DNA of 64,000 bases, taken from positions 248,001-312,000 of the forward strand of contig NZ_LT635448.1 in the NCBI RefSeq assembly GCF_900120005.1. Direction: 5' to 3'. The stretch comes from Holdemania sp. Marseille-P2844 (GTDB taxonomy: Bacteria; Bacillota_I; Bacilli_A; Erysipelotrichales; Erysipelotrichaceae). The notes below the pieces were generated by a model, which searched no databases, was not told the origin of the DNA, and worked only from the letters and a program-made list of their open reading frames with translations. The position numbers were made by a program, and so were the translations under genes. Shown piece after piece: positions 55,651 to 63,432 of this stretch. Position 1 is the stretch's first letter. Every line of letters starts with the position of its first letter.

Positions 55651-56346
55651 ATGCTGGAACAATTAAAAAAGGAAGTTTATGAAGCAAATTTGCTTTTGCC
55701 GAAATATCAGCTGATTACCTTTACCTGGGGAAACGTCAGCGGCATTGACAGAGAACGCGGGTTGATTGTGATCAAACCCAGCGGCGTCGACTATCAGTCG
55801 ATGCAGGCGGAGGATATGGTCGTCTGCGATTGGCAGGGTAAGGTGGTCGAAGGCCGATACAAACCGAGCAGCGATCTGATGACGCATCTTGAATTATATC
55901 GGCACTTCACGACGATCGGCGGCGTTGTGCATACTCATTCGCAGAATGCGACGGCGTGGTGTCAGGCGGGGAAAGCAATCCCCGCGCTGGGGACAACGCA
56001 TGGTGATTATTTCTATGGGCCGATTCCATGCACCCGCCTGATGAGCGAGGCGGAAATCCGTTCGGATTATGAGCTGAATACTGGAAAAGTGATTGTGGAA
56101 ACTTTTGAAACGCAGCAGCTTGACGCTGCACAGATGCCGGGCGTTCTTGTTCAAAGCCATGGCCCGTTTACCTGGGGAGAAAGTCCGGGCGACGCTGTTC
56201 ATAACGCAGTGGTTCTGGAAGAACTGGCAGAGATGGCTTGGAAAACCCGGCTGATTAATTCCGAGGTTTCTTCGATGCAGCAGACGCTTCTTGACAAACA
56301 TTATCTGCGCAAGCATGGACCAGGAGCTTATTATGGACAGAAATAA
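55651..56346 (+). CDS. ulaF: L-ribulose-5-phosphate 4-epimerase
   Basis: 231 residues, full length for AraD/Ula[29 protein letters not shown] (zinc His pair), the [14 protein letters not shown] block and [10 protein letters not shown] (third His) are all present. It converts L-ribulose 5-phosphate to D-xylulose 5-phosphate, the entry to the pentose phosphate pathway. Overlaps the next gene by 14 bases. Confidence 0.9.
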
Positions 56347-57193
56347 ACCGTATCTGTTGGGAATGTACGAAAAGAGTATGCCGGCAGATCTGTCCTGGAA
56401 AGAAAAACTGGAAAACTGCCGGGCTTTTGGTTTTGACTGGCTTGAGATCAGCATTGATGAAACAGAGGCGAAATTAAGCCGTTTGGATTGGACGCCAGGC
56501 GAGCGTCAGGCGTTGATCAAAACGATGCAGGCGTGCGGTGTTCCGATTTCTACAATGTGCTTGTCAGGCCATCGCAAATACCCGTTAGGCTCGCTGAATC
56601 CAAAAGATCATCGGCGTTCGCTGGAAATTATGGAAAAAGCAATCGACCTTGCTTCCGACTTGGGTATCCGGCTGATCCAGCTGGCAGGCTATGACGTTTA
56701 TTATGAGGAAGGCTCTGATCAAACTCGCCGCGAATTTATCAGGAATCTGCGCACGGCGGTCGGCATGGCGGCGAAAAAAGGCGTAATCCTAGGCTTTGAA
56801 ACTATGGAAACACCGTTTATGGATACAGTGGAAAAAGCCATGGACTATGTTCAGCTTATCGACAGCCCTTATCTGGGAATCTATCCTGATATAGGAAATT
56901 TGACCAATGCTTCCCTGCTGTATCATGTTCCCGTCTGGAAGGATATTGAAAAAGGAAAAGGACATTTGTTTGCGGCGCACCTGAAAGAGACCCGTCCGGG
57001 AGTTTATCGGGAAGTACCTTTTGGGACCGGACATACGAACTACCCGGAAGATCTGCGGAAACTGAAAGAGCTTGGGGTCCGGATGTTCACAGGCGAATTC
57101 TGGCATACCGCGCAAAATCCTGATTATCCGGAAATTTGCCGGCAAGCCGCGTGTTTTCTGCGCCGTCAGCTGGATGAAGTGTTCCATGATTAA
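56333..57193 (+). CDS. ulaE: L-xylulose-5-phosphate 3-epimerase (copy 2)
   Basis: 286 residues from the ATG at 56333 (CAGGAG ahead). [39 protein letters not shown] and YPDIGNLTN parallel the copy at 48647, but the two differ widely, for instance [10 protein letters not shown] here and ACHLKDAIS there. It lies directly after ulaF. Having both copies suggests different substrates or separate regulation. Confidence 0.87.
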
Positions 57194-59849: not shown

Positions 59850-60533
59850 TTACTCGTCTAAGATCGGCGTCAGCGATTCATTCCAGACAAACTGACTGGC
59901 AACAGTATAGACGTTTGTTCCCGGCACATGATATTTCGCATCCGGATAATCCTTGTAAGCAATGATATTGCCCATGCCGTTGGAGAACGTGCCGGCATTA
60001 TACAGCTGCGATCCATCATAGCCCAACTGCTCTAACAGGCAGATCGTGTACGCCGCTTCCACCCCGGCGGTGGAGATGAAGACGATCGGCTGATCCTGAG
60101 GAAACAGGTCGCGGACAAGACTTTCCGATTCTTCATAATTAGGGAAGAAGCTGCCGACGTCACCCATCTGCGCAATCACCTTGCCGCTGTCATCCCGAAC
60201 TTTCGTCATCCGATATAAGACGTTGTCCTCGCGCTGATAATCAACCAGTACGCCGTAAAACGGAATGTTGACAAACCCGGCGACAGAGCCTTCCTCAGCC
60301 AGCTGCGCTGGGGAACGCAAGTCAAAGTAGAGCACGTCATCAAGAAACAGGTAGTCGTCCAAATTGGTGGGGCTGATCGGCGAATCGCTCATCAGCGCAC
60401 TTTGAGGATTGGATTTTTCGGGCAGTGCGGAGGGCGTGGGCGTCTCTGACGGCACGGGCGGCGTTTGCGGTTTTGCGGCGCATCCGCTTATCCATAAAAG
60501 ACAGAGTCCTGCAAGTAAAATTTTATATTTCAT
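59850..60533 (-). CDS. Rhodanese-like lipoprotein lacking the catalytic Cys
   Basis: 227 residues from the ATG at 60531-60533 (GAGGTGA ahead). Lipobox ISGC with Cys18, a Pro/Thr/Ser linker (about 20-55), then a rhodanese domain (VLYFDLRSPAQL, FPNYEESESLVRDLFP). The catalytic loop reads FISTAGVEAAY: Ser154 stands where its paralogue at 62749 has Cys. So it is probably a binding or scaffold member rather than a sulfurtransferase. One base after the ApbE stop; same transcript, outside face of the membrane. Confidence 0.82.
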   Translation of the reverse strand: MKYKILLAGLCLLWISGCAAKPQTPPVPSETPTPSALPEKSNPQSALMSDSPISPTNLDDYLFLDDVLYFDLRSPAQLAEEGSVAGFVNIPFYGVLVDYQREDNVLYRMTKVRDDSGKVIAQMGDVGSFFPNYEESESLVRDLFPQDQPIVFISTAGVEAAYTICLLEQLGYDGSQLYNAGTFSNGMGNIIAYKDYPDAKYHVPGTNVYTVASQFVWNESLTPILDE

Positions 60534-60534
60534 T

Positions 60535-61740
60535 TTATTCACCTCGTTGAATTTCAAATTCGACAGTTTCCGGAAGCGGAAGGGACGTCAGGCGGCGTTG
60601 TTCCATGCCTTCGCTGACGGTGAGCTTTAAATGCTCTTCGGCCGGCTCACACCAGGCATAATCAATGCCAAGCTGCGCTTTGTCTTCAAACCGGCGGATC
60701 ATCGCGCGGCGCTGGAGGGGGTCTTCTATATTATAAAGGACAGTGCTCAAAACATCCAGCGTTCCCGCCTGATCAGCAGCGCTCAACGTTACGCTGCGCA
60801 GCCAGTTTTCGCTGTATCCGGTGCGGGGATTGAGAATGTGATGGCGGCGAATCTGTTGATCGCCGTTTTGGATCAGAAAATAATTCTGGTCGTCGGCTGA
60901 CGTTGAAACGACGCCCTGACGCAAGGTGAAGGCATAGAGCAGCGAAGCCTGACCGGAGGGATCGCGCACGCCGATCTTCCAGGCGTATGGCGCATCTTCC
61001 GGTGACCAGGCGATGATGGAACTGCTTCCGGCGTCCAGCAGAAAGGGGGTGTTCAACGGCTTCAGAGCGGCGGCCAGCTGATCAAGAATGTAGCCCTTGG
61101 CCATCGCCCCCAGACTGATTTCAAGCGCTTCTGAGCACGCCCCCGGTTCAAAGCGGACGGTCATCGCCTGAAAATCCAGCTGAATCACTTCACTCAGTTT
61201 GCCAGCTTCAGGCAGACAGCCGACGATTGCGCTGAGTGCTTCGGGATTCGGATCGGTATTCTCGGTGGGAAACGGCGCGAATTTGGGTTCCCACAATTCG
61301 CTCAGCGCTCCCAGCAGGGGATGGAACAAACCGTCGCTCAGCTGCGATAATTCGATTGCGCTTGTGAGCATTGCGGCAAGTTCAGGTTCGATCGGAATCG
61401 TTTCGCCGGGATGGTCATTGATATAAGCGACGTTGTGCAGCAGATTTCCCTGATCGTCGAGATAGCTGTGATGGGAGTCTGCCAGTTTGTGCCATTGGGG
61501 TAATTGAGCTTCGACGATCGCCGTCGCTTCCTTTAGCGTTTTCGGATCTGTCATGGTCAGCTGGATTGTCGTATTGAGCGGAAGAACGAGATTTCCCTCG
61601 CTGTCCGTTAAAACGTCAAAATAATTTGTGAAAGTTTTTTCTTCGGCGTTTTCAACGGAAACGTCTTTCTGACACCCTGAAAACAGGCTTAAACAAAGGA
61701 AAATTATTGAAAAAGAAAGTAATTTCTGAAAAAAATTCAA
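60535..61740 (-). CDS. apbE: ApbE-type FAD:protein FMN transferase lipoprotein
   Basis: 401 residues with a TTG start (61738-61740) eight bases after a strong AAGGAGG. Lipobox LFSGC with Cys23; then ApbE motifs: DGLFHPLLGALSELW, LGAMAKGYILDQL, DAGSSSI, VSTSADDQNYF and HHILNPRTGYS. It moves FMN from FAD onto Thr or Ser of exported proteins outside the membrane. The divergently encoded lipoprotein with a matching acceptor motif is the likely client. Confidence 0.88.
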   Translation of the reverse strand: MNFFQKLLSFSIIFLCLSLFSGCQKDVSVENAEEKTFTNYFDVLTDSEGNLVLPLNTTIQLTMTDPKTLKEATAIVEAQLPQWHKLADSHHSYLDDQGNLLHNVAYINDHPGETIPIEPELAAMLTSAIELSQLSDGLFHPLLGALSELWEPKFAPFPTENTDPNPEALSAIVGCLPEAGKLSEVIQLDFQAMTVRFEPGACSEALEISLGAMAKGYILDQLAAALKPLNTPFLLDAGSSSIIAWSPEDAPYAWKIGVRDPSGQASLLYAFTLRQGVVSTSADDQNYFLIQNGDQQIRRHHILNPRTGYSENWLRSVTLSAADQAGTLDVLSTVLYNIEDPLQRRAMIRRFEDKAQLGIDYAWCEPAEEHLKLTVSEGMEQRRLTSLPLPETVEFEIQRGE

Positions 61741-61793
61741 GATTTGAACCTCCTTGACCGGAGCTCTGTGAAAGGATGTAACAACTTCCCCAG

Positions 61794-61822
61794 TTGTTTT
61801 CCACAGGCCGAGTTGTTATAAT
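61794..61822 (+). promoter_or_regulatory. Promoter of the flavin-lipoprotein operon
   Basis: TTGTTT, a 17-base spacer and a perfect TATAAT, giving a leader of about 145 bases. Confidence 0.7.
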
Positions 61823-61867
61823 AATAGCATATTAAAGTGTCTTACGCACAGTGATTATCCAAAGTGA

Positions 61868-61896
61868 AAAAGCAGCGTTCATCCAGGACTGCTTTT
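61868..61896 (+). other. Hairpin in the leader of the flavin-lipoprotein operon
   Basis: AAAAGCAG and CTGCTTTT form an 8-base stem ending in four T, like an attenuator, about 80 bases before the start. The rest of the leader shows no known riboswitch pattern. Confidence 0.5.
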
Positions 61897-61975
61897 CGTC
61901 TGTGCACGGTGCCGGGAACATCGTCAGGACGCTTTAATACTGTTTCAGGGAGTTTATAAAACAAGGAGGGAATTC

Positions 61976-62725
61976 ATGAAAAAAGTTTGGGCAATTCTTC
62001 TGTCCTCTCTGATGGTGCTGACGTTAACAGCTTGCGGCAACAGCGGCAGCGGAACGCAGAAGCCAACTCAGGGAACTGAGGGCGGTTCATCCACCCCATG
62101 TACAGCGGAGGGTGAAATCACGCTTGACAGCATTAACGAGTATCTGAACACAAGCGCCGACATGGGCGAAGGTTCGATGGCAAACGTCGTTGCGGTCGTA
62201 CCGATCAGCCATATCAATGGTCCGCGTGAAGAAACCGATTTCTATGCCTTCGTCAATTTCAAGTATAAGGCGAGAAATTACATCAAGTATCAGATCACGT
62301 ATTTGTCCTGCACCTGCCGCTCGGCGGATGTCAATTACTGGATGACAGCGTATGTTGAACTGACATTGCCGGAAAGCAAGAAGCTGGACGACGCGCAGGT
62401 TCGTTTCCTGTCGTTTGACCGCGACAGCGCCGATAAGTACACGGCGGGTTTCTGGGGCGACAGCAATCCGACCCCGGCGGGAGCGACTTACGACATGTTC
62501 AAGGCGGAATACATCCCGTATTTCATCGACAAGGACTATGCTTACATTAAGACGCTGAGCACGGTCGACGATATCGCAGCGGAAGATTACACTGCCGGCG
62601 AAGGCCGCGAAGGGCTGACGCTGGATACGTTTACCGGGTCTTCGGTTTCATCCAACAACATCATCAGAATGCTGAACGCGCTGATGGAATATCACGGCAC
62701 TGACGATTATTTCAGCGCTGAATAA
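61976..62725 (+). CDS. Lipoprotein with a flavinylation-like C-terminal motif
   Basis: 249 residues. Lipobox LTAC with Cys20, a Gly/Ser/Thr linker, then a domain with YLSCTCR near residues 109-115 and, at the end, LDTFTGSSVSSNN. D217-x-x-T220-G-S-S223 fits the known ApbE target pattern D-x-x-[S/T]-G-A-[T/S], with Ser for the middle Ala. FMN would be bound at Ser223. The pattern is followed by a helix IIRMLNAL as in NqrC/RnfG-type FMN domains. It starts 36 bases after an AAACAAGGAGG run end at 61971. Function: probable extracytosolic electron carrier. Family membership needs a profile search. Confidence 0.62.
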   Translation: MKKVWAILLSSLMVLTLTACGNSGSGTQKPTQGTEGGSSTPCTAEGEITLDSINEYLNTSADMGEGSMANVVAVVPISHINGPREETDFYAFVNFKYKARNYIKYQITYLSCTCRSADVNYWMTAYVELTLPESKKLDDAQVRFLSFDRDSADKYTAGFWGDSNPTPAGATYDMFKAEYIPYFIDKDYAYIKTLSTVDDIAAEDYTAGEGREGLTLDTFTGSSVSSNNIIRMLNALMEYHGTDDYFSAE

Positions 62726-62748
62726 AAAAGGGAAAGAGGAAAAATCCA

Positions 62749-63432
62749 ATGAAAAAGTTATTTGCGATCGCTCTGTCTGTTCTGCTTCTGGCCGGCTGCG
62801 CTTCCGCACCGCAGGAATGCCCGCCATGCGCAACTCCGGACGCGGCTGAACCAACGACGGCTGCTCCGGCACCGCTGCCTGAACCACGCGATACGACGAA
62901 GACCTACAAGCCTTCCAAGGATGCGGCGGATGAAGCCTGCACTGCGGAAGTCTGGGCTACCGGCTGCTCCAGCATCAACGTTGACAATCTGACGGAATAC
63001 CTGAACCGCGACGATGTTCTGTACATCGACCTGCGCGATTACAACGACTATGCGAAAAAGCATCTGAGAAACTTTGAAGTTATTCCGTACTTTGCGCTGA
63101 TTTTTGACGAAGCCGCAGGCACGGAAGGCAAGCCGCAGCTGTATGGCGGAACGCTGGAAGAACCAGTCGCTACGTATGAAGAATCCGCAGCGCTGTTAGA
63201 AGCCATGTTCCCGAAGGATAAGACAATCTTCTTAATGTGCCAGTCCGGCGGACGTGTCGCACAGATGATGAAGCTGATGAATTCCTTAGGCTACGACATG
63301 AGCAAGATCTACAATGTCGGCGGCATGGGCCAGTTCACAGATTCCAAGTTTGCTCCATATACGACGGACAACGCGGAAATCGTTCTGGAAGCGACCTATT
63401 CGTTTGAAGGTTTGACACCGGCTACGAAATAA
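62749..63432 (+). CDS. Rhodanese-domain lipoprotein, catalytic Cys present
   Basis: 227 residues. Lipobox LAGC with Cys17, a Cys/Pro/Ala-rich linker, then a rhodanese domain (VLYIDLRDYNDYAKKHL, active loop CQSGGR with Cys164). It resembles the protein at 59850 throughout but keeps the Cys, so it could carry a persulfide. AAAGAGGAAA precedes the start, 23 bases after the flavin lipoprotein gene; one operon. Outside face of the membrane. Confidence 0.85.
   Translation: MKKLFAIALSVLLLAGCASAPQECPPCATPDAAEPTTAAPAPLPEPRDTTKTYKPSKDAADEACTAEVWATGCSSINVDNLTEYLNRDDVLYIDLRDYNDYAKKHLRNFEVIPYFALIFDEAAGTEGKPQLYGGTLEEPVATYEESAALLEAMFPKDKTIFLMCQSGGRVAQMMKLMNSLGYDMSKIYNVGGMGQFTDSKFAPYTTDNAEIVLEATYSFEGLTPATK

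Follow-up and report, generated by a model that had tools for sequence, protein, structure and literature searches.

A candidate extracytosolic flavin-sulfur electron relay encoded by a lipoprotein gene module in Holdemania

Extracytosolic flavinylation is known to serve iron and respiratory acceptors and a handful of others, and for many of the gene clusters concerned no partner is known. The described systems that come closest to the one analysed here are the Listeria-type flavin-based extracellular electron transfer system (FmnB/ApbE, PplA, Ndh2 and EetAB), the flavin mononucleotide (FMN) subunits RnfG and NqrC of Rnf and Nqr, the periplasmic rhodanese PspE, and Npsr and related coenzyme A (CoA) disulfide reductase-rhodanese proteins. 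In Npsr, the rhodanese Cys receives sulfur, which a flavin-linked Cys then reduces (PMC7969121). Here we describe positions 59850-63432 of a 64,000-nt stretch of contig NZ_LT635448.1 from Holdemania sp. Marseille-P2844 (the window; all coordinates are window positions), a Holdemania near H. filiformis. Open reading frames show that this segment holds four lipoprotein genes in two divergent transcripts, encoding an ApbE-type FMN transferase (ApbE), a lipoprotein with a predicted variant FMN_bind domain (FMNb; 98-99% identity to H. filiformis) and two rhodanese-type lipoproteins, RHa and RHb. The reading that we favour, at a probability of roughly 0.42, is an extracytosolic flavin-sulfur electron relay, i.e., a surface persulfide or polysulfide reductase acting as an electron sink or a detoxification device.

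The likeness to the Listeria-type system, drawn in an initial annotation of this DNA, lies in an extracytosolic ApbE and a flavin lipoprotein candidate in a Gram-positive bacterium. By contrast, the Holdemania module has one FMN_bind domain, of a variant type and containing a CxC motif, a rhodanese partner that is fused to it in many lineages, and a link to Rnf. No Ndh2 or EetA/EetB was recognised among the open reading frames flanking the module in the window, nor as a recurrent neighbour in 60 loci, the rest of the genome not having been searched; the parallel does not extend to the electron source, which is likely Rnf rather than Ndh2/Eet. With RnfG and NqrC, FMNb shares the fold and the position of the ApbE-type motif, but it is a free lipoprotein or secreted protein lacking a transmembrane anchor, and it has an SCTCR motif and N-terminal elements. 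Npsr, like the fused FMNb-RHb proteins described below, joins a flavin unit and a rhodanese in one polypeptide. Npsr is, however, a cytosolic flavin adenine dinucleotide (FAD) pyridine-nucleotide disulfide oxidoreductase that works with CoA, whereas FMNb has a candidate domain of the covalent FMN_bind type and is extracytosolic and without a site for NADH (reduced nicotinamide adenine dinucleotide); Pfam detects no FAD pyridine-nucleotide disulfide oxidoreductase domain in the fused proteins. Sulfur acceptance near a flavin-linked Cys has been demonstrated for Npsr, and we infer it for FMNb and RHb. The same Holdemania genome also encodes a cytosolic 854-aa protein (G000:C13, ~78880; L141:532-3096) that combines, by eye, a CoA-disulfide/persulfide reductase-type flavoprotein, a rhodanese and a sulfite-reductase-like iron-sulfur part. 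PspE resembles RHb in being an exported single-domain rhodanese, but PspE models match RHb only weakly, and RHb differs by an insertion and a further pair of cysteines; no flavin partner is known for PspE.

What was computed here comprises the genes with their folds and motifs, the fusions, and the linkage of the genes to one another and to Rnf. The core of the module is FMNb plus RHb. A scan of 84,980 species yielded 60 FMNb loci, distributed over Erysipelotrichaceae, Treponema, Clostridia, Synergistota and Izimaplasma. An RHb- or RHa-type rhodanese lies within approximately 1 kb of FMNb in 59 of these loci, the exception (L132) ending at a contig edge, and the RHb type is adjacent to or fused with FMNb in 56/60. 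RHa (32/60) and ApbE (25/60) occur within 4 kb of FMNb less often. Of the conserved four-gene set anticipated from the Holdemania DNA, the FMNb-rhodanese pair is thus found far beyond Erysipelotrichales, whereas ApbE and RHa are frequently not adjacent. FMNb and RHb form a single polypeptide in 17 of the 60 loci (RHb being doubled in one of these), and a second FMNb-RHb-RHb reading frame, in genome G182, is cut at the contig start. Judged from the FMNb tree, fusion arose at least twice, separately: the fusion state needs at least 2 changes, and well-supported branches force two. Rhodanese and FMN_bind are the only Pfam families that recur in the fused proteins, bar a weak Succ_CoA_lig overlap. 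This combination of adjacency and repeated fusion argues for the relay.

Clustering of neighbours over the loci revealed no other partner that is obligate, since the recurrent ones (MsrA, NusG_II, Hpre_diP_synt_I and FMN_bind reductases) are each confined to a few loci. NusG_II and Hpre_diP_synt_I stand beside the module at L122:8485-9328 (Pfam-confirmed) and L125:3110-4013 (by similarity or eye), as they do in other ApbE clusters. In Treponema, where the set is mostly FMNb-RHb-ApbE-RHa on one strand, FMNb nests inside the Erysipelotrichaceae-type group, and both features are consistent with lateral transfer.

For FMNb, the flavin domain is recognisable at the level of the family and of the predicted structure. 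FMNb alone scores below the Pfam cut-off for FMN_bind (PF04205; E 0.08, 14.0 bits against a cut-off of 22), and in the family FMN_bind is the leading Pfam match, which 21 of the 39 core domains reach with E ≤0.1 (best 1.7e-5). An AlphaFold model based on 39 diverse relatives (predicted local distance difference test score 83.8, predicted template modelling score 0.77) has RnfG of C. tetanomorphum (Z 10.2; 2.5 Å, 116 residues) and RnfG of A. woodii (Z 8.5) as its best structural matches, followed by unrelated folds at Z 5.6 and lower. An earlier, poorer model had A. vinelandii RnfG (Z 7.9) and Vibrio NqrC (Z 5.9) as its top rows. These matches come from a second-look aligner and a deeper alignment (A2), which alone split RnfG from background; Foldseek gave no significant match with either model, and a profile search of solved structures produced nothing credible. 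An FMN_bind (RnfG-like) fold, on which the initial annotation had staked its reading, is supported by the models.

The putative flavinylation motif of FMNb ends at Ser223, as had been proposed, and reads DTFTGSS, an A to S change relative to the canonical D-x-x-[ST]-G-A-[ST]. Most Erysipelotrichaceae copies have G-S-S instead of G-A-T, and DTWTGATVS or a similar canonical motif occupies the homologous position in fused Clostridia and Synergistota orthologues (domain identity ~50-62%). When FMNb and canonical FMN_bind domains are compared as profiles, the alignment is weak (pairwise E ~0.006, probability 6%) and pairs Ser223 with the flavinylated Thr of the FMN_bind SGAT, and in the AlphaFold model Ser223 begins a long C-terminal helix (residues 223-240). 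Nine Erysipelotrichaceae homologues carry an extra N-terminal domain, FMN_bind by eye, with SGAT in 7 of the 9. The predicted RnfG fold and a motif of the ApbE type, variant in Holdemania, are a second reason for favouring an outward flavin-sulfur relay. The two cysteines of SCTCR are invariant in the curated alignments A1 and A2, to 40% identity, and the pattern [LI]SCTCR is present in 56 of 59 FMNb genes from the wide scan.

The two rhodaneses are clear paralogues (tblastn ~1e-17) and, as the initial annotation noted, one has the catalytic Cys (RHb, CQSGGR) and the other does not (RHa, STAGVE). RHb matches Pfam Rhodanese at 2.3e-7 (31.6 bits against a cut-off of 22.2), while RHa stays under the cut-off (E 0.009). 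Cys and a six-residue loop are kept in the RHb lineage in 29/29 homologues from the order and in every fusion examined; CQxGxR is near-invariant, and a second pair, Cys64/Cys73, is conserved too. At the same position, RHa homologues of the order have Ser or Ala (24/24), which marks RHa by sequence as a non-catalytic rhodanese-like paralogue. RHb could therefore in principle carry a persulfide, and RHa could not. A six-residue C-x4-R loop is of the sulfurtransferase type and a seven-residue loop of the phosphatase type; a phosphatase or arsenate reductase role for RHb was rejected on loop length. The sulfurtransferase-type loop, together with the near-invariance of SCTCR and CQxGxR, again favours the relay. 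Longer rhodanese lipoproteins with a DGCxRS loop, their Cys off the usual site, occur in two Izimaplasma-type loci (L130:4988-5812 and L131:4925-5815).

The ApbE assignment is clear from Pfam (1.5e-37, 130 bits against a cut-off of 25.6); of the domains named initially, ApbE and RHb pass the profile cut-offs and FMNb and RHa do not. A phmmer comparison with the solved ApbE-family protein TM1553 gives 3.6e-27, with the Ser...His...Asp region aligned. The catalytic residues of V. cholerae ApbE are Ser241, His257 and Asp285 (PMC12052999), and the segments VSTSADDQ, RHHILNP and TLDVLST of the window protein, which are conserved in the family, align with the catalytic segments of solved ApbEs. A search of 37 carrier genomes, most of them lacking an adjacent ApbE, detected ApbE somewhere in 34. 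The Holdemania genome itself has two ApbE genes only, and 31 FMN_bind matches, most of them in frames of ~600-800 aa.

Several observations point to Rnf as the source of electrons. The Holdemania genome has one Rnf operon, which includes its own ApbE; its RnfD has a fused C-terminal FMN_bind domain, and its RnfG has three ApbE motifs (both at L136:6636-9274, G000:C14). In five loci (L122, L127 and L129-L131), Rnf genes adjoin the module. Two of these are from Erysipelotrichaceae, with the module directly next to rnfDGEAB, and three are Izimaplasma/Bacillales-type contigs, in which rhodanese-FMNb(-ApbE) is divergent from genes that include Rnf subunits; Pfam confirms the RnfD-type and [FeFe]-hydrogenase-like genes of L131, and those of the other two were recognised by similarity. 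Within the order, 29 of 30 carriers have RnfD-type genes compared to 208/286 non-carriers (Fisher p 0.003, uncorrected for kinship), as have 29/30 genomes of a separate set of carriers reached via other loci. Multi-flavinylated Rnf has been proposed to pass electrons out to other extracytosolic acceptors (PMC8238504). The adjoining Rnf genes, the RnfD-type genes of the carriers and the additional FMN_bind domains of the host RnfG and RnfD all favour the relay.

We infer flavinylation, the redox role of the CxC motif, the substrate and the direction of electron flow as follows. ApbE would attach FMN to Ser223 of FMNb, and the Rnf complex would charge this surface FMN with cytosolic electrons via the flavins of RnfG. 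By way of its CxC dithiol, FMNb would then hand RHb two electrons, and Cys164 of RHb would take outside sulfane sulfur (polysulfide, persulfide or thiosulfate-derived) and release sulfide or thiol. RHa, without Cys, may take part by binding or docking, a role that many lineages can do without. Npsr provides a precedent for the relay, as a protein in which flavin and rhodanese reduce persulfides (PMC7969121). More tentatively, fermenting anaerobes of the gut and rumen may use the module to dispose of electrons on sulfur outside the cell; it would then be an extracytosolic persulfide/polysulfide reductase that carries covalent flavin, is driven by Rnf and combines a CxC relay with a rhodanese, either fused or paired.

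Some findings weigh against this interpretation. The Holdemania motif is GSS where the canonical one is GA[ST], Rnf is common in the order regardless of the module (208/286 non-carriers), and the rhodaneses of Izimaplasma-type loci have a DGCxRS loop, the CQxGxR loop being absent. In addition, genome G296 (C13, L050), which is 96% complete, has FMNb-RHb-RHa, with neither ApbE nor RnfD detected. Since ApbE adjoins rnf in Holdemania and others, one missing region could account for both gaps.

Among other explanations, a general extracytosolic dithiol reductant survives best, and we consider it unlikely. Flavin electrons would here pass to the CxC and the rhodanese Cys and on to protein disulfides or methionine sulfoxide reductases, replacing CcdA/thioredoxin. 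Both the CxC of FMNb and Cys64/Cys73 of RHb are conserved, and three related Clostridia encode, beside the gene for the fused FMNb-RHb protein, an MsrA-type protein with an N-terminal signal or anchor (L101:1614-2591, L108:2546-3529 and L113:7336-8316). However, MsrA adjoins the module in four loci only, of which these three form one clade and the fourth looks cytosolic; moreover, the Holdemania genome has its own DsbD/CcdA-TlpA type protein, and the loop of RHb is that of a sulfurtransferase. Ranked below this, and unlikely as well, is the idea that the rhodaneses are binding or sensing modules and not sulfur carriers, with FMNb as one more flavin shuttle at the cell surface, serving some unrelated acceptor (iron or quinones, for example). 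Many ApbE/FMN_bind systems do serve iron or respiratory acceptors (PMC8238504), and the loss of the Cys throughout RHa means that a rhodanese fold can function here without sulfur transfer. Retention of Cys and the six-residue loop in all RHb homologues of the order and all fusions examined speaks against it.

We regard as improbable a reversal of the relay, with outside sulfide or persulfide being oxidised and electrons entering the cell via surface flavin and Rnf. Flavin and Rnf reactions are reversible, and an identical parts list would do, but the carriers are mostly fermenting anaerobes, which need electron sinks. Multi-flavinylated Rnf has, in addition, been proposed as an electron exporter (PMC8238504). 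Coincidental proximity of genes with unrelated functions has nothing in its favour except the weak single-sequence FMN_bind score, and chance pairing of FMNb with a rhodanese can be practically dismissed given the linkage (59/60) and at least two fusions, in several phyla.

The features of the locus are collected in Table 1. Signal peptides and lipoboxes were read from the sequence in all four proteins (ApbE, FSGC; RHa, ISGC; FMNb, LTAC; RHb, LAGC), and the four lipoprotein genes and their coordinates are as first annotated. ApbE precedes RHa on the minus-strand transcript and FMNb precedes RHb on the plus-strand one. RHa is better read as starting at the likely ATG at 60533 than as the TTG frame at 60557, because this ATG sits one base past the ApbE stop (60535-60537). 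Between the transcripts, a scan for consensus sigma-70 promoters and terminators found nothing clearly over shuffles, and Rfam had zero matches. Also near the module in the window, a sugar-phosphate epimerase-like gene (56291-57193) has same-cluster counterparts near the module in Synergistales (L119, 8415-9266; L123), which is probably a coincidence.

Table 1. Positions of the module features in the window
Feature	Position	Strand	Basis
RHa, rhodanese-like lipoprotein, catalytic Cys replaced by Ser (STAGVE; Ser codon 60072-60074)	59850-60533	-	Weak Pfam match, RHb paralogue
ApbE, FAD:protein FMN transferase lipoprotein, start TTG	60535-61740	-	Pfam, phmmer
Divergent intergenic promoter region	61741-61975		Sequence
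FMNb, lipoprotein with predicted variant FMN_bind (RnfG-like) domain, residues ~65-249	61976-62725	+	AlphaFold, RnfG match, family Pfam
FMNb CxC (Cys112-Thr-Cys114 in SCTCR), candidate redox or sulfur-acceptor dithiol	62309-62317	+	Alignment conservation
FMNb Ser223 in DTFTGSSVS, predicted FMN attachment site	62642-62644	+	Weak profile alignment, orthologue motif, helix start
RHb, rhodanese lipoprotein, loop CQSGGR (Cys164 codon 63238-63240), extra pair Cys64/Cys73	62749-63432	+	Pfam, conservation

The pairing with rhodaneses had not been recognised as described in the initial annotation, and we found no description of flavinylation or an FMN transferase paired with a rhodanese in the open-access literature, although an earlier account may exist elsewhere; rhodanese goes unmentioned in a published survey of gene clusters for flavinylation. 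Judged from that literature, the flavin-rhodanese pairing is a new version of flavin-based extracytosolic electron transfer. FMNb probably represents a new subfamily of flavinylated proteins in which the motif is altered, and this makes it useful for the study of ApbE specificity. The flavin-rhodanese pair, present in Erysipelotrichaceae, Treponema, Clostridia and Synergistota, many of them from gut or rumen, would link surface flavins to sulfur chemistry and, if the relay is real, would be a concrete means by which fermenters bring about sulfide or thiol reduction outside the cell.

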